DNA from: a virus
Length of the DNA stretch: 25,572 nucleotides
Direction: 5' to 3' (one strand)
Virus record (IMG/VR): IMGVR_UViG_3300020439_000072
Location: 1-25,572 of that record
This document shows positions 10,198-21,834 of this stretch, in pieces. The notes below the pieces were generated by a model. The model was not told the origin of the DNA. It did not search any database and was given only the letters and a program-made list of their open reading frames with translations. The translations under genes were made by a program, and so were the position numbers. Every line of letters begins with the position of its first letter. Position 1 is the stretch's first letter.

Positions 10198-10786
10198 CCC
10201 CTTCCATGCCGTTGAGAGGTTTGAAGATACGATAGCGAAATTTTATGGTGCAAAGTATGGAATTGCTACTGATTGCTGCACCCATGCAATTGAATTGTGT
10301 TTGAGGTATGAAGGATACGATAGAATAACATTACCAGAGCATACTTATATTTCTATTCCAATGACCTGCCAGAAACTTGGTCTTGATTGGAGATTTGATA
10401 ATATTCAGTGGTATGATCAATATTATCTTGGTGGCACTAATATTATTGATGGTGCAGTTTTGTGGAGACCAAATTCATATGTCTCTGGAACTTATTTGTG
10501 TTTGAGTTTTCAATATCGGAAGCACCTCTCTTTGGGTAGAGGTGGAATGATTTTGACGGATGATGAGTACGCTGCGGAACAGTTGCGAATGATGGCATAT
10601 GATGGACGTAAGAAATATGTTCCCTGGGGTGATCAAGATATTACTGTAATGGGTTATCATTATTATATGACCCCAGAGACTGCAAAGAAGGGACTTGAGG
10701 TATTTGAAGAAGTAAAGGATGCATTCCCTCTTGCAATGAGTTATAAGGATTATCCGTATCTTCCTGATATGGGAGTATTTAAATGA
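10160..10786 (+). CDS. Short DegT/DnrJ/EryC1/StrS-type aminotransferase-like protein
   Basis: Resembles the PLP-dependent aminotransferases that make amino sugars. The start of the PLP domain is present (KFYGAKYGIATDCCTHAIEL, 27-46), as is LPEHTYISIP at 58-67. The phosphate/ring aspartate region is IIDGA (D97). The lysine segment SFQYRKHLSLGRGGM matches SF-x-x-K-x-l-x-x-G-x-G-G, with K121 as the expected Schiff-base residue. The protein is only 208 aa against about 370 for the family and lacks the C-terminal domain and part of the middle. It may be a minimal enzyme, a binding protein or decaying. Either ATG 10160 or ATG 10172 could be the start. Confidence 0.75.
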   Translation: MNRIMNCTQKVSDPFHAVERFEDTIAKFYGAKYGIATDCCTHAIELCLRYEGYDRITLPEHTYISIPMTCQKLGLDWRFDNIQWYDQYYLGGTNIIDGAVLWRPNSYVSGTYLCLSFQYRKHLSLGRGGMILTDDEYAAEQLRMMAYDGRKKYVPWGDQDITVMGYHYYMTPETAKKGLEVFEEVKDAFPLAMSYKDYPYLPDMGVFK

Positions 10787-11637
10787 ATAAACTGAAGGGA
10801 CTTCCTCCCATCATGTATCTGAATCTAGATCACAGAACTGATAGGAAGGAACACATTGAAGGTCAATTTAAAAAGTGGGGGATTACTGATTTTACTCGGT
10901 GGTCCGCTTCTAGGTTTTCTACTGACAAGATTGATCAGTGGGGGCATAAGTTGGACTTGATGTTGCTTGCTCCTTCTGATGCATCTATTGTAATGAATGA
11001 ATTTACAATGATGATTGAGTGGTATGAGTCTGGTATATCTGAGACTTTGATGATCATACAAGATGATCTGTGCTTTGATCTTGTAGAGTATTGGCCATTT
11101 GATTGGGAGACAGTATTTAAAAGTCTTCCATATAATTGGGAGATAGTGCAGTTTTATCATTGTCATGATCATCATATAAAGATGCACCTCAATCCAAGAC
11201 AGTGGCACAGCTCATCTGCTGCTATCTTTATGATCAATAGATCTTTTGTTGAGAAGTTGATGAAGATTCATCTTCAACCAGATGGGTCGTTTAAGTTGAA
11301 TCAAAGCCTAAGAGATCTTCAAGTCCCTAGAGAATCTTATAGTAGTGATGACTTCTTGATTTATCAGGTTGGTAAATCATATTCTCTACCTCTCTTAACT
11401 CTTGATCCTAAATTAGCAGTAGCACAAGATAATAAGCAGCAGACGGGATCCGATTATGATCCTATCATCGCTGTTTATCATAACAAGATATATGACATTC
11501 TTGCCACTTCATGCATTAAAAAGTGGTGGGAAGAGAAGAGTTGTAGATATTCGGCGGAAGATATTTTATCTTGGGGTGGACCAATTCATGAGACAATGTT
11601 GATTCAGTTACCACGATATGATCATATAGCACCATGA
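10783..11637 (+). CDS. GT25-like glycosyltransferase, copy 1 of 5 (EDD changed to QDD)
   Basis: Family 25 includes LPS galactosyl/glucosyltransferases and collagen hydroxylysine galactosyltransferases. The N-terminal motif is intact: YLNLDHRTDRKEHIEGQF at 12-29. The metal/nucleotide-sugar site normally EDD is QDD (93-95), followed by the array's shared FDW. LPYNWEIVQFY and KMHLNP follow the array pattern, and a C-terminal KWWEEK/ILSWGGP block matches the other copies. The protein is 284 aa. It is coupled by ATGA to the aminotransferase-like gene. Loss of the first acidic residue makes activity uncertain. Confidence 0.82.
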   Translation: MNKLKGLPPIMYLNLDHRTDRKEHIEGQFKKWGITDFTRWSASRFSTDKIDQWGHKLDLMLLAPSDASIVMNEFTMMIEWYESGISETLMIIQDDLCFDLVEYWPFDWETVFKSLPYNWEIVQFYHCHDHHIKMHLNPRQWHSSSAAIFMINRSFVEKLMKIHLQPDGSFKLNQSLRDLQVPRESYSSDDFLIYQVGKSYSLPLLTLDPKLAVAQDNKQQTGSDYDPIIAVYHNKIYDILATSCIKKWWEEKSCRYSAEDILSWGGPIHETMLIQLPRYDHIAP

Positions 11638-12506
11638 TGGATGAATTAAAATTAGAATTGAATACTAGTTCTCCATCAAAGTTGGATGGACTTCCTAAAA
11701 TCATTTACAGGAATAACGATTCTGATGTACATGCTAAGGAGTCTATGGAGGAACAGTTTAGTTTATGGGGAATTAAAAATTATCAGAGACATTCTAATAA
11801 GTATCATGGAGATACTAATCCTGACTGGAAGGATATTGTTCTCGATAACGTCACCATGTTACCCTGGACTGATGTATCCTATTCATTAAATCTCATAGAT
11901 TCTATTATTGAGTGGTATGATTCTGAATCATCCGAGACATGTATCTTTGCAGATGATGGTCTTGATCTTTCTGTAGTTAACAGTTGGATGTTTGATTGGA
12001 AGTTTTTGGAACATCAGCTTCCATACAATTGGGACTGTATTCAATTATATACATCTTCTAGGAGATCAATTAAGATGCATCTTCACCCTTGGGTGAATAC
12101 AAATAAATCTCAGCGGTGTTTTATGATTAGTAGAACATTTGCAAAAAGATTGAAGCAGTTTCACTTTGTGGACAACAAATATAAGCTTGCATATGAAACA
12201 CCAAACAAGTCTGTAAGGTTTGATGAATATGGATTACTAGACACATTCTTTTTTGATATTGGTGTTACATATACTCTTCCTGTATTTGCATTTAATAATA
12301 CTTGTAAATTGAGTGTTGAAGAAAGAGTTGGGTCTGATGCTATTAAATATTGGTGGAAATATAAATCAAATAAATTCTCAAATTTTGAGTTCTTTCATTA
12401 TAATAAGGGTGATGATGAGTGGAAGATGGAAGTCATGTTCGACACTCAAGGTGGTAGATCAGAAGTTTACATGGACGAAGTTGAGGGCATAATGATATGG
12501 ATCTGA
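11634..12506 (+). CDS. GT25-like protein, copy 2 of 5, probably degenerate
   Basis: Clearly of the same array: QFSLWGIKNYQR, a VVNSWMFDW block, LPYNWDCIQLY, KMHLHPW and the C-terminal WWKYKSNKFSNFEFF. However, the NLDxRxDR motif is replaced by RNNDSDVHAKE (26-36), and EDD has become ADD (106-108). Both sites expected to hold the nucleotide sugar and metal are therefore altered, while the reading frame (290 aa) is intact. That points to a retained non-catalytic role or early decay. It begins with ATGATG overlapping the previous stop. Confidence 0.78.
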   Translation: MMDELKLELNTSSPSKLDGLPKIIYRNNDSDVHAKESMEEQFSLWGIKNYQRHSNKYHGDTNPDWKDIVLDNVTMLPWTDVSYSLNLIDSIIEWYDSESSETCIFADDGLDLSVVNSWMFDWKFLEHQLPYNWDCIQLYTSSRRSIKMHLHPWVNTNKSQRCFMISRTFAKRLKQFHFVDNKYKLAYETPNKSVRFDEYGLLDTFFFDIGVTYTLPVFAFNNTCKLSVEERVGSDAIKYWWKYKSNKFSNFEFFHYNKGDDEWKMEVMFDTQGGRSEVYMDEVEGIMIWI

Positions 12507-13402
12507 ATTATAAGATGAGAGGATTTCCAAAAGTTCACTTCTTCAATCTTGATAATAGGGAAGATAGACGTAAATGGATGGTTGAACAATTTGAAGTTTT
12601 TGATATTGAGTATCAGCGTGTCTCTGGCACTAAGTTTCTTGCGTCAGAGAATTCCAAATGGAAGCATCTCATTGCGGATATTGATGACTATAAACTTTTA
12701 GTTCCTATTGCTGCAAATGCAATTAGTCATTTAGATTTCTTGAAGAACTGGTATAAGGAGTCTAAAGATCCTTATGTGCTTCTCATGGAAGACGATTATG
12801 ATATGCAATTAATTGACTATTGGACATTTGATTGGCACACAATAATTGATAGGTTGCCTTACGACTGGGACTGTCTTTTGATGGGTTTTGAGAATCCAGA
12901 TGGCATTAGATTTCATCTACACCCTATTGAACCAGCACACGATTTTGGACCAGTTCTTCTAAAACGGTCTTTTGTTGAAAAGATATTAGATCTTCATTGT
13001 GTTGGTGACAAGTACAAGTTAGTCAATACTGTTGCTAATGCTGCTTGGAATAAACAATCTGATGTTGCTGGATCTGGAACAGTAGACTATTTTATGGTTC
13101 ATACTGGTAGGACATATTGTCTTCCTTTGATTACTGTTAATGCAAACTTTGGTAGTTTTGAAAACAATAGTATAATTCAGAAGTTCTATAGAAGTGAGGG
13201 TGACATTCTTGCTAGGAACACCTATTATTTCTGGTGGCAGCATGAATGTGATAGGTTCTCTTTAGATGATTTTTTTAGTTATGGGACTGGTAAACACGAT
13301 GATATGATATTAAAACCTCGTAAATTCCGTACATATGATATGACTGGGAAGTCATATAAATTATATGGGGAATCATACCTTGATTATTTTAGGAAATCAT
13401 GA
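12497..13402 (+). CDS. GT25-like glycosyltransferase, copy 3 of 5 (motifs intact)
   Basis: This copy keeps both hallmarks: NLDNREDRR at 17-25 and EDDYD at 97-101. They are followed by YWTFDW, LPYDWDCLLMGFENP and FHLHPI, then DYFMVHTGRTYCLPLI and the C-terminal FWWQHECDRFSLDDFFSYG block. With 301 aa and no signal peptide, it should act in the cytoplasm on a nucleotide-sugar donor. The donor (UDP-glucose, UDP-galactose or a derivative) and the acceptor cannot be told. It overlaps copy 2 by 10 bases and copy 4 by 4. Confidence 0.88.
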   Translation: MDLNYKMRGFPKVHFFNLDNREDRRKWMVEQFEVFDIEYQRVSGTKFLASENSKWKHLIADIDDYKLLVPIAANAISHLDFLKNWYKESKDPYVLLMEDDYDMQLIDYWTFDWHTIIDRLPYDWDCLLMGFENPDGIRFHLHPIEPAHDFGPVLLKRSFVEKILDLHCVGDKYKLVNTVANAAWNKQSDVAGSGTVDYFMVHTGRTYCLPLITVNANFGSFENNSIIQKFYRSEGDILARNTYYFWWQHECDRFSLDDFFSYGTGKHDDMILKPRKFRTYDMTGKSYKLYGESYLDYFRKS

Positions 13403-14205
13403 ATTTATACGATAAGTTTGCTGGGGTTCCTACCTTCTACTATTTTAATTCGGATTCAAACACTCCATTGAAGGATCATATGGAGAGAAATCTTATTAAT
13501 CTGAAGGTAAAGAATTATAAGAGGATATCTACTTCTAAGTATACTAATGCTAATGTAAGTGAATGGAAAGATCTATTGTTAAATAGGTCCAAGTATAAAC
13601 TTCCAATTGCTACAGCAGCATATTCAATAACTATTCTTGAGTCTTTGAAAGACTGGTATGACAATACTGAAGAAGAGTCATTAATAATAAGTAGGGATAC
13701 AATAGATTTTGGGTTGGTCCAATACTTCCATTTTGATTGGGAGTTTTTGATGAGTAAACTACCCTATGATTGGGATTGTTTTATGATGGGATTTGAGAAT
13801 ATAAACTATATTCCATTTTATCTTCATCAAATAATGCCAGCGCATACCTTTAACACTGCTCTTCTGAATAGAAGGTATGTTAAGAAGTTAATCAAACTTC
13901 ATTGTGTTGATGGGAAATATGATTTGTCAAACTTTAGTGCAAATAGAAGTTTTGGACTTCATTCTGGAACTCCAGATTACTTTATAGGACATTGTGGTAA
14001 AACATATTGTCTTCCAATGTTCCCAGGTCACACTGACTTCTTTGGCAAAACATCTAAGAAGTACCAAGTAGTTAAGGGGTGTAGATTAGCATATTATGAT
14101 TGGTGGAGGAATGATAAGAAGAGACATAGTATGGAAGACATATTTACTTATGGTAAACCAAATGATAGGGGAATGATTAAGAGGATTTGGTCGTACTTGA
14201 AATGA
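13399..14205 (+). CDS. GT25-like protein, copy 4 of 5, probably degenerate
   Basis: The overall sequence is close to copies 3 and 5 (LPYDWDCFMMGFEN, HTFNTALLNRRYVKKL, DYFIGHCGKTYCLPMF, DWWRNDKKRHSMEDIFTYG). The N-terminal motif is instead FNSDSNTPLKDH (16-27), and the EDD site is RDT (99-101). Basic or neutral residues in the metal site make catalysis by the normal mechanism unlikely. The 268-aa frame is uninterrupted. It is coupled by ATGA at both ends to the two intact copies, which would suit a partner subunit. Confidence 0.8.
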   Translation: MNLYDKFAGVPTFYYFNSDSNTPLKDHMERNLINLKVKNYKRISTSKYTNANVSEWKDLLLNRSKYKLPIATAAYSITILESLKDWYDNTEEESLIISRDTIDFGLVQYFHFDWEFLMSKLPYDWDCFMMGFENINYIPFYLHQIMPAHTFNTALLNRRYVKKLIKLHCVDGKYDLSNFSANRSFGLHSGTPDYFIGHCGKTYCLPMFPGHTDFFGKTSKKYQVVKGCRLAYYDWWRNDKKRHSMEDIFTYGKPNDRGMIKRIWSYLK

Positions 14206-15044
14206 ACTTAAAAAATAAACTAAAGAACTTCCCCCACATCTACTATACGAATCTCGATAATCGAACTGATCGTAGAGATTATATGGAAGAACAATTTGAT
14301 TATTGGAAGTTGCCCTTCACTAGAGTGTCTGGTTCAAAGTTCCTAGCATCAAATATTAATGATTGGGCAAAGGACTATGTTGTTGGATCAGTTACTGGCA
14401 TACCAGCATACGCTCTTGGTAATGCAGTAACTCATTTAGAGTTCATGAAAAATTGGATCGATACGAGTGAAGATGAATATCTTCTTCTCATGGAGGATGA
14501 TTATGATTTAACTTTATTTGAATATTGGAACTTTGATTGGGACTATTTGATGTCTCGATTGCCGTATGACTGGGATTGTATTCAACTAGGATTTGAATCG
14601 ACAGAGTTTATACCATTCTTTCTTCATCCTAAACTCAGGCATTCTTATTTTGGTCCAGTTCTTTTGCGGAGAGATTATGTTGAGAAGATTTTATCTCTTC
14701 ATTGCTACAAGGATAAGTATAGATTTGATTGCAAGACTGCAATACTTGACTTTAGCAGCAGTTCAACTACTGTGGATTATTTTGTGGGTCACACTGGCAA
14801 GACATATTGCATTCCTCTTATTACAACAAACACAAAGTTAACTAGCACGGAACACAGTCTTGAAATAAATAGACTACATCATGATAATTCAAGACATGCA
14901 TATTATTGGTGGTGGATGACTAAGCATCTTAATTATTCTTTGGATGACTTCTTCACATATGGAAAACCAAATGATCGTGAAATGATAATACTTACTACTT
15001 CTAAATTATCTATACCTGAACTGAGTACCGATGATAAATTCTAA
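14202..15044 (+). CDS. GT25-like glycosyltransferase, copy 5 of 5 (motifs intact)
   Basis: Starting at ATG 14202 (ATGA overlap) rather than the in-frame ATG 14187 gives 280 aa. NLDNRTDRRDYMEEQF lies at 17-32 and EDDYD at 98-102. Next come FEYWNFDWDYL, LPYDWDCIQLGFES, FFLHPK, DYFVGHTGKTYCIPLI and the C-terminal YWWWMTKHLNYSLDDFFTYG. All family landmarks are present, so it should be active. The last bases overlap the amidinotransferase start by 14. It is most like copy 3, with copy 4 between them. Confidence 0.88.
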   Translation: MNLKNKLKNFPHIYYTNLDNRTDRRDYMEEQFDYWKLPFTRVSGSKFLASNINDWAKDYVVGSVTGIPAYALGNAVTHLEFMKNWIDTSEDEYLLLMEDDYDLTLFEYWNFDWDYLMSRLPYDWDCIQLGFESTEFIPFFLHPKLRHSYFGPVLLRRDYVEKILSLHCYKDKYRFDCKTAILDFSSSSTTVDYFVGHTGKTYCIPLITTNTKLTSTEHSLEINRLHHDNSRHAYYWWWMTKHLNYSLDDFFTYGKPNDREMIILTTSKLSIPELSTDDKF

Positions 15045-19641: not shown

Positions 19642-20256
19642 ATGAAGAAATTTTCGCAATACATTGACGAAACAAGATCTCTTGCCTCTATTCAAGGTAA
19701 GAGACTTGGTTTAGTGCCTGATGGGCATGGATCTTTTCATCATAAAAAAACTGGAGAATTCATTGCGAAGAACGTTGGTGGTAAACTGAAGTTCTACAAT
19801 CAAAATCAAATTATTGGAGAACCTGATCCACCACAAAAAAGAACTCCGAATAATCAAAGACCAGTAGCAACACAAACTTCTACTAAAAAGAAGACAAAAA
19901 ATAGTGTAACTACTGAAGTTCCTGAACAACTTACACGCGAAAAAGAGCAAGAACTTAGAGAAAAGTATATTGCTGGTGAGATTTTTTGTGAAGGATCCTT
20001 TGTTCATAACATCAAGACAGACCAGGTTGGGAAGATTGTTCGTAGAGGTACAAATCATCTTATCTGTGTGACATCTGAAGATGAAATGTTCAAGTCTTGG
20101 ATTAGAGATGTTCGTGAATGGACTGAAGTATCTGGGGTTCCTGCCGATCAAAGACTAGTCGGAACGGATGCTCACAGAGAGTATGCCATGAGAATGACTG
20201 GAACAAAGAAAATCAGGAATTTCATAAATAAATACAAGGCAAAAAAGAAGCACTAG
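19642..20256 (+). CDS. Probable late/virion protein with a capsid-targeting-like N-terminus
   Basis: The first ten residues (MKKFSQYIDE) resemble the T4 capsid-targeting peptide of internal proteins (MKTYQEFIAE), which sends proteins into the prohead and is cut off by the prohead protease. Then come DGHGSFHHKKTGEFIAK and GKLKFYNQNQ, a disordered basic linker at about 60-95 (KKRTPNN, STKKKTKN), and a folded C-terminal part with FVHNIKTDQVGKIVRRGTNH and DAHREYAMRMTG, ending in a lysine-rich tail. It sits behind a perfect late promoter. The product may be packaged with the DNA, but the function is not known. Confidence 0.75.
   Translation: MKKFSQYIDETRSLASIQGKRLGLVPDGHGSFHHKKTGEFIAKNVGGKLKFYNQNQIIGEPDPPQKRTPNNQRPVATQTSTKKKTKNSVTTEVPEQLTREKEQELREKYIAGEIFCEGSFVHNIKTDQVGKIVRRGTNHLICVTSEDEMFKSWIRDVREWTEVSGVPADQRLVGTDAHREYAMRMTGTKKIRNFINKYKAKKKH
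20223..20230 (+). promoter_or_regulatory. T4-type late promoter box (CATAAATA)
   Basis: Matches the cyanophage late consensus NATAAATA and lies inside the end of the previous gene, 30 bases before the ATG at 20261. Together with the boxes at 19615 and 22132 it marks a late module. Chance occurrence in an AT-rich coding end is possible. Confidence 0.5.
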
Positions 20257-20260
20257 AGTA

Positions 20261-21340
20261 ATGGCAAACCTTAAGCATGTTGTCTCTGATCTTCATGAGG
20301 TCTACCTCACGGAGATGGAAGCAAAGATTAAACCTCAATTAGATAAGTCTTCTGCATCTTCCAGCGGATCAGATGATGGTGAGAAGAAGGATGATGCTGG
20401 TGGTGGCGGGGATAACATCCAGAAGGCAGCAAGACAACTTGCTTATGACACCAGATATAAAGCAAGAAGAGAAGGTATTCCTCTAGAGAGAGCATTTACT
20501 CAGTCTCTGCAGAACTCTAAAGCTTCTGCTCCTGTTAAGGATGCAGCAAAAGCAATGCTGTTTAAAGCAACTAAAGCGGAGTCTGTTGAGGTTGAAGGTG
20601 ATCTTGAAGAAGCAAGAGATAAGGGTAAGGAGAAGGTTCGCGTAATTCCTAAGAAGGGATATGGCGATGCTAAGGGGTATGTAAGATTTGCTGATGCTAA
20701 GAAGAAGCATGAGTTAAGATCGAACCCTCAGATCTCATCTGTAACTCCTACAGATCATGGTGATGCTTATGAGGGTGAGGATGATAAGAAGAAGAAATCT
20801 AAGAAGAAGTCTGGCAAACTTGATCCAGTGGGTCAGGAAGACGGTGATGTAAACAATGACGGTAAGAAGGATTCTTCCGACAAGTACCTTATGAAGCGCC
20901 GTAAGGCAATTGGTAAGGCAATTGCTAAGACTAAAAAAGAAGAGTTCTCTAACTGGAAGGCAGAACTTGGTCTTGAAGAAGAGACCATGGTTGAAGTTGC
21001 TGGAGAAGAAAAGCAAAAAAAGATCACTGAGAAGAACGTAAAGAATAAGATTGAGATTCATCCTGATCTCAAAGAAGGCATCGGTAAACTCGGTGGAGAA
21101 GTTCTTGAAGTTGAGGAGATCTCTGAGGAAAAACCTTATGAGAGAATTGATCGCTTGAATAAGGAGAGAATTGCTAAGCAGAAAGCAGCAAAAGATGCTG
21201 AGACTGCAAAGAGAGATAAGCGTGTTGCTGACTTCAAAAAGTTCAGAGAAGGTGAGCGTGCAAAGGGAACTCGTCACGATCACATCCTTGATAAGTGGCA
21301 ACAGAAGAAGATTGCTGCTGACAAAGCAAAAAAGCAGTAG
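20261..21340 (+). CDS. Large charged late protein with EF-hand-like loop; 0-frame product of a probable -1 frameshift pair
   Basis: 359 aa, strongly charged (lysine, glutamate, aspartate) and mostly disordered or helical. The N-terminus is MANLKHVVSDLHEVYLTEME. A polyacidic/glycine linker occupies 30-50. LAYDTRYKARREGIPLERAF lies near 60-79. A canonical calcium loop is seen at D196-x-N198-x-D200-G-x-x-D204-x-x-D207 within GDVNNDGKKDSSDKYLMKRR. A long coiled-coil-like tail runs from about 285. Such proteins are usual in cyanophage late regions and are probably virion or head-core components. The stop TAG 21338-21340 comes two codons after the heptamer A AAA AAG, and the -1 frame is open beyond it. 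Confidence 0.85.
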   Translation: MANLKHVVSDLHEVYLTEMEAKIKPQLDKSSASSSGSDDGEKKDDAGGGGDNIQKAARQLAYDTRYKARREGIPLERAFTQSLQNSKASAPVKDAAKAMLFKATKAESVEVEGDLEEARDKGKEKVRVIPKKGYGDAKGYVRFADAKKKHELRSNPQISSVTPTDHGDAYEGEDDKKKKSKKKSGKLDPVGQEDGDVNNDGKKDSSDKYLMKRRKAIGKAIAKTKKEEFSNWKAELGLEEETMVEVAGEEKQKKITEKNVKNKIEIHPDLKEGIGKLGGEVLEVEEISEEKPYERIDRLNKERIAKQKAAKDAETAKRDKRVADFKKFREGERAKGTRHDHILDKWQQKKIAADKAKKQ

Positions 21341-21370
21341 GCGAGGCGGCACAACCTAGTGCTTCCTCGC
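21328..21370 (+). promoter_or_regulatory. Probable -1 programmed ribosomal frameshift signal
   Basis: The slippery heptamer A AAA AAG (21328-21334) is in the correct phase of the upstream gene; it is the sequence used in E. coli dnaX. After a 6-nt spacer containing CAG and the stop TAG, a stem-loop begins. GCGAGG (21341-21346) pairs with CCTCGC (21365-21370). After a C/T mismatch, GGCAC (21348-21352) pairs with GTGCT (21359-21363, one G-T pair) around the loop AACCTA. This is textbook geometry. A chance indel in a continuous gene is the alternative. Confidence 0.75.
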
Positions 21371-21834
21371 TCAGGGCAAAGCAGCAAGATACTGAGCGTC
21401 AGCAAATGCAGAATGCAAGAGCTGAAATGGAGACCTCCAGAGCATCTGCTGGTCAGGCAAAGATTCAAGCAAGGAAGGATGAGAAGGCACTCAATGCTAG
21501 AATTCGTTCTATTGCTAATGAGGAGTCTGAGTTAGATGAGCGTACTCGTTACGCCAAGGAGACTGGTAAAGACTTCAAGACTGGTAATCCGTCTGAGAAG
21601 GGTGGCACCAGATCTGGTGATAGTGCCTTTGATAAAGTCAGTCGCGAAATGCGTAAGACTGGTGGGATGATGTCTTCTAGAAAGAATGCTATTCCACCTC
21701 AAGGTAAGAAGAAGGAAAAGGGTGCAAAGGGTTACAAAGGTGTAACACCTGTTGATAGAATTAGAAACAGACTTGCTCAAAAGAGAGCACCTAAACCCAA
21801 TCCATACAGACCAAGAGCTGGTGAATCTGATTGA
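21334..21834 (+). CDS. C-terminal part of the frameshifted late protein (-1 frame)
   Basis: In the -1 frame after the slippery site, translation continues AVGEAAQPSASSLRAKQQDT and runs without a stop to TGA 21832-21834. The result is 166 further residues and a fusion of about 524 aa. Composition stays the same as the upstream tail (charged helix rich in A, K, R, Q, E), then basic and glycine-rich, and ends NPYRPRAGESD. The first ATG in this frame, at 21406, has no clear ribosome binding site, so independent translation is less likely. The whole should be a virion-type protein with a long basic C-terminus. A separate 142-aa gene from 21406 is the alternative reading. Confidence 0.75.
   Translation, partial: AVGEAAQPSASSLRAKQQDTERQQMQNARAEMETSRASAGQAKIQARKDEKALNARIRSIANEESELDERTRYAKETGKDFKTGNPSEKGGTRSGDSAFDKVSREMRKTGGMMSSRKNAIPPQGKKKEKGAKGYKGVTPVDRIRNRLAQKRAPKPNPYRPRAGESD

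Follow-up and report, generated by a model that had tools for sequence, protein, structure and literature searches.

A very probable programmed -1 ribosomal frameshift in a mosaic gene family of T4-like cyanophages

The window (the whole stretch of DNA analysed, 25,572 nt) is a 25.6-kb virus contig, and its best matches to isolates (e.g. S-SM2, S-SCSM1 and Bellamy) identified it as a T4-like cyanophage of the Kyanoviridae. The gene starting at 20261 is flanked by a nucleotidyltransferase-like gene and a short acidic-basic ORF, with no adjoining tape measure gene. The following features were located:

20261..21340, plus strand: zero-frame ORF of 359 aa (pI 9.3), the N-terminal part of a mosaic, highly charged protein and the product expected without frameshifting
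21016..21022, plus strand: second in-phase A AAA AAG, used as internal negative control; the -1 frame is shut at once
21328..21334, plus strand: slippery heptamer A AAA AAG, in phase and identical in the related contigs L008-L013 and L121
21334..21834, plus strand: -1 frame extension of 166 codons plus stop (pI 10.3), containing a conserved C-terminal module that begins RTRYAKETG (PHROG 11470)
21338..21340, plus strand: zero-frame stop TAG, the second codon past the heptamer
21340..21371, plus strand: two-part stem-loop, 21340-21346 with 21365-21371 (7 bp) and 21348-21352 with 21359-21363 (5 bp), loop 21353-21358
21406..21408, plus strand: first ATG in the -1 frame, 65 nt past the TAG; it is GCA in L013 and not conserved as a start

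Modules of the zero-frame ORF are homologous to Bellamy gp171 and S-SCSM1 ORF92. The ORF ends ..GAC AAA GCA AAA AAG CAG TAG, and the heptamer, of the X XXY YYZ type, lies in phase within the overlap of the two frames. The -1 frame contains no stop from 21322 up to the TGA that ends it at 21834, and slippage at 21328-21334 would give a product of 358 + 166 = 524 aa. In the initial annotation it was stated that the 359-aa frame ends two codons past an in-phase A AAA AAG, that the -1 frame is open for 166 further codons, that a two-part stem (6 and 5 bp) begins 6 nt past the heptamer, and that the heptamer at 21016-21022 has no clear stem. All of these sequence facts were confirmed on rechecking (TAG at 21338-21340, TGA at 21832-21834).

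The outer stem has 6 bp (21341-21346 with 21365-21370), or 7 bp with the G21340-T21371 pair counted, and starts 5-6 nt 3' of the heptamer, within the 5-9 nt expected of a stimulatory structure. Its folding energy was -20.6 kcal/mol (z -3.05), and 3 of 200 shuffled sequences folded equally well. Folding downstream of the control heptamer was no better than chance (z 0.01). The structure was also conserved by compensation: in L013, a more distant relative with a homologous extension, the inner stem GGCAC/GTGCT was replaced by AGTGG/CCACT, three pairs being altered on both sides. An Rfam search gave no match.

Three further observations were made in the window. The commonest repeated module, DPVGQEDGDVNNDGKKDSSDKYL (20843-20890), is similar to the calcium loop of dockerins (Pfam Dockerin_1, below cut-off). 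The ORF upstream of the frameshift gene (19642-20256) ends GCA AAA AAG AAG CAC TAG, and its -1 frame is shut after four codons by a TAA overlapping the ATG that follows. With only 204 aa, the ORF matches the C-terminal region of the cytidylyltransferase-like PHROG 395 and seems to lack the enzyme domain. Finally, five successive ORFs of 268-301 aa (starting at 10783, 11634, 12497, 13399 and 14187; 10783-15044) resemble tandem relatives of each other, with common stretches such as LPYDWDC.

The signal had been described as dnaX-type, which holds in part. As in E. coli dnaX, A AAA AAG is followed shortly 3' by a stem. However, the Shine-Dalgarno sequence found about 10 nt upstream of the heptamer in signals of this type is absent from the window cassette (it is present in cassettes B, C and D, see below), the -1 product of the window is longer whereas that of dnaX is shorter, and the proteins are unrelated. 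In E. coli, A AAA AAG and G GGA AAG rank with the most efficient heptamers (PMC4066793; PMC5009743). In three unsplit relatives, L006 (S-SM2 gp186, 222 nt before the stop), L129 and L024, an in-phase A AAA AAG precedes [TA]CTGA and a stretch that may form a stem (about -13 to -14.6 kcal/mol), and the -1 frame stops one codon on, as it does in E. coli dnaX. A truncated form of these proteins is possible.

An alignment of homologues had been proposed as a check, and it showed conservation of the heptamer, the stop and the stem. All three were kept in six more contigs from different metagenomes (L008-L012 and L121; seven with the window); where the extension was compared, these share 80-98% identity with the window. 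The -1 frame contains no start codon from the heptamer to the ATG at 21406. Eight sites vary in this stretch, each of them a third position of the -1 frame, and none of the changes alters an amino acid. This silent-only variation indicates that the stretch is translated in the -1 frame past the stop, and with no start codon there it can be reached only from upstream.

In a nucleotide search against annotated phages the window cassette had no match, and isolates with other cassettes were therefore used. Three cassettes besides that of the window were found in the gene family. Their slip site is A AAA AAG or G GGA AAG, an upstream Shine-Dalgarno sequence is present in most, and all act in the -1 direction. 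In S-BM3 the homologous gene is split at GCA AAA AAG TAG, which is preceded by AGGAG at a distance of 8 nt and followed by two hairpins (z -6.67). In SynMITS9220M01 it is split at CTA AAA AAG ACT; here AGGAG lies 11 nt upstream and there is a long stem (z -4.03). In the public record of each isolate the split gene is annotated as two hypothetical genes. The fourth cassette (D), CTG GGA AAG TAG, occurs in 12 contigs (8 distinct around the site). In most of them GAGGAGG or a variant lies 10 nt before the heptamer. The structure that follows this cassette is weak in L196 but clear in L261. Two cassettes are present together on one phage contig (G001), each in a different gene.

The shifted products correspond to proteins that relatives encode in one frame. 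The product of cassette C, ..IQEKLNLKK/DSMGDVIKDFYKSDAPQ.., matches dozens of proteins with ..VDEKLNLKKADMGDVIKDFYKSDAPQ.. in a single frame, and that of cassette D, ..EEEDRLGK/VDEKLNIKK.., corresponds to the unsplit ..EEEDRLGKSEVSEKMNL.. of L145. Codon-position counts, cited here for cassettes C and D, likewise favour the -1 frame: its third positions made up 21 of 29 variable sites past the heptamer in C and 9 of 11 in D. Cassette C alone is weaker evidence, since an ATG lies just past its heptamer; its AGGAG is too distant upstream to serve that ATG. Assignment of the MGDVIKDFYKSDAPQF module of cassette C to DUF6321 was rejected, as Pfam places DUF6321 further downstream.

In-phase heptamers were also seen at the ends of other genes. 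Those of L074 and SynMITS9220M01 (L219:14784) were treated as chance occurrences with little structure, and at L219:14784 the next gene apparently has its own Shine-Dalgarno sequence and ATG. In L247 and L252 an unrelated 169-aa ORF has a G-rich stretch, GTCCGC AAAAAAG TAG and a 129-codon -1 extension, and is possibly another frameshift gene.

S-BM3, SynMITS9220M01 and two contigs together have 164 -1 overlaps with long extensions, in which six in-phase A AAA AAG or G GGA AAG heptamers were found where 0.37 were expected, and five of the six belong to mosaic proteins. The 111 mosaic ORFs contain 59 such heptamers: for the 11 that lie within 15 nt of the stop, the -1 frame continues for 109-297 codons, while for the other 48, at least 111 nt from the stop, the -1 frames are shut within 18 codons. 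Two modular halves meet at 26 distinct -1 junctions, 14 with a heptamer, 11 with a start codon at the stop and one (L032) at an A13 run; the junction table contains no +1 junction between modular halves. A +1 pair in S-ShM2 without a slip site was left out of this count (L005, 1886-1940: adjacent modular ORFs, the second frame being open from just before the stop). Since the junction loci are often related, the independent count is at least four cassettes rather than 14, and a family-wide chance test on independent cassettes only was weak (p about 0.013). The overlap count and the codon signature are the stronger tests.

Taken together, the conserved slip site, the compensated stem, the -1 coding signature before any start codon and the restored unsplit-type proteins argue that 20261-21834 is very probably expressed by programmed -1 ribosomal frameshifting. 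The majority of ribosomes would terminate at the end of 20261-21340 and so produce the 359-aa form. Some would slip at A AAA AAG, where tRNA-Lys would re-pair from AAG to AAA, aided by the two-part stem 5-6 nt downstream, and would continue in the -1 frame to give the 524-aa form. The two forms proposed in the initial annotation (359 and about 524 aa) are thus supported, since homologues keep the signal and other cassettes split the same family in the same direction. The ratio of the two forms may be fixed in the particle.

Translation as two separate genes, with termination at the TAG and a restart at the ATG at 21406, is very unlikely. An in-frame ATG does lie 65 nt past the stop, and some relatives do carry two genes, an arrangement named in the initial annotation as one that would speak against frameshifting. 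In those relatives, however, the second gene begins with a start codon of its own at the stop of the first, and there is no heptamer. In the window the -1 frame is constrained at the protein level before the ATG at 21406, where there is no start codon, and that ATG is replaced by GCA in L013.

Transcriptional slippage at the A run would produce mixed mRNAs, from which the longer form would arise by standard translation. It is plausible in one relative (L032 1396-1412, and L033), in which the -1 split lies at an A13 run and no start codon occurs up to +107; this is a candidate for transcriptional slippage, or an assembly error. The documented bacterial case involves runs of 9 A or T (PMC5009743). 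For the window it is very unlikely, as the run is only A6 (A3 in cassette D) and the stem and Shine-Dalgarno features suit ribosomal slippage. It can be practically ruled out that the gene has a single frame whose A run was misread, misassembled or recently changed by a one-base indel: A runs are indel-prone, and Bellamy and S-SCSM1 encode both halves in one frame, but the six further contigs from different metagenomes agree with the window in heptamer, stop and stem, the A AAA AAG sites at which isolates split the family are different ones with different surroundings, the splits are all -1 and none +1, and such an error would leave the conservation and compensatory change of the stem unexplained. 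Since many relatives do without frameshifting, the family does not depend on it.

As a mechanism, frameshifting is not new, and the best-known -1 frameshifts of tailed-phage structural genes are those of tail-assembly chaperones. No chaperone match was obtained among PHROGs, Pfam and NCBIfam, and neither family nor position agreed with lambda G/GT. The lambda gpG/gpGT protein is unrelated, the neighbours in the window are not tape measure genes, and mature virions lack gpG and gpGT (PMC5009743), whereas a homologue of the present protein is annotated as a virion protein. That homologue is from S-SCSM1, for which virion proteins were identified by mass spectrometry; the part of the study's text seen here does not name the ORF. 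The CsoS2 protein of alpha-carboxysomes (PMC11365436), likewise repetitive and largely disordered, occurs in a protein shell, and -1 frameshifting yields two lengths of it, of which the longer has an extra C-terminal domain. Unlike the phage protein it belongs to a cellular organelle and has no proteolytic modules, and the likeness is drawn without any claim of sequence relation. An AlphaFold2 model of the extension consisted of a long helix and disorder (pTM 0.27).

Several modules of the family begin right after a recurrent motif. For the RTRYAKETG and KLNLKK modules, [LIVMF]-x-E directly precedes the module in 41 of 41 and 35 of 35 contexts (background 2.2%); its middle residue is variable, and homology starts at the motif. 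The AVYGG, NRRAAR and GKKKGLW modules behaved in the same way in smaller samples, and some other modules had no such motif at the position tested. Seven of eight cassette variants have a site by the frameshift junction (VGE, VKE, VAE, IQE, VDE, VDE and VEE); it is absent in L013. L/I-X-E is the motif of the T4 prohead protease gp21 (PMC9026906). Because modules start right after [LIVMF]-x-E and a site lies by nearly every junction, the protein could be a mosaic head-internal polyprotein, its modules bounded by prohead-protease-like sites, with frameshifting setting a smaller dose of the C-terminal part per head; we give this reading about an even chance.

The internal head and core proteins of T4 are not known to be made by frameshifting. 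Those proteins, including the core proteins cleaved by gp21, resemble the present one in being charged and in L/I-x-E sites fitting gp21 (PMC9026906). The protein here likewise has an N-terminal stretch ending LHE and LTE, which could be a targeting propeptide. They differ in that no sequence match was found and that the present protein is a multi-module mosaic. PHROG, Pfam and NCBIfam searches gave no match to the families of T4 Alt, IPI-III, gp22, gp67 or gp68, and fast divergence makes this absence weak evidence.

Frameshifting could also be real in a protein that is a tail or baseplate part, or is non-structural. The evidence from the homologue concerns virion association only, and no family of known function was matched in PHROGs, Pfam or NCBIfam, but the boundaries of the two best-sampled modules always carry a prohead-protease-like motif. 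This alternative is possible, though we would not favour it.

L246 and L066 have different upstream modules joined to one downstream module exactly at the slip site, as do L013 and the window, so that the slip site behaves as a recombination joint. Under the polyprotein reading, the modules might be cut apart by the prohead protease, and the swappable cassettes might be recombination joints that set the C-terminal dose and were repeatedly gained, lost and swapped. This fuller scheme is offered tentatively, at slightly less than an even chance.

In the open-access literature searched, no earlier report of a -1 frameshift was found for T4-like cyanophages or for any mosaic protein associated with virions, nor was there a description of this gene family, its cassette exchange or a link to putative prohead cleavage. 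The sequence comparisons point to an overlooked way for marine cyanophages to make two forms of a probable particle protein. If confirmed, the pairs of hypothetical genes in the public genomes of S-BM3 and SynMITS9220M01 would each be one gene with two products. The different cassettes within one gene family would provide natural replicates for the requirements of frameshift signals in cyanobacteria, and the conserved [LIVMF]-x-E boundaries would give a testable list of possible head contents in such phages.
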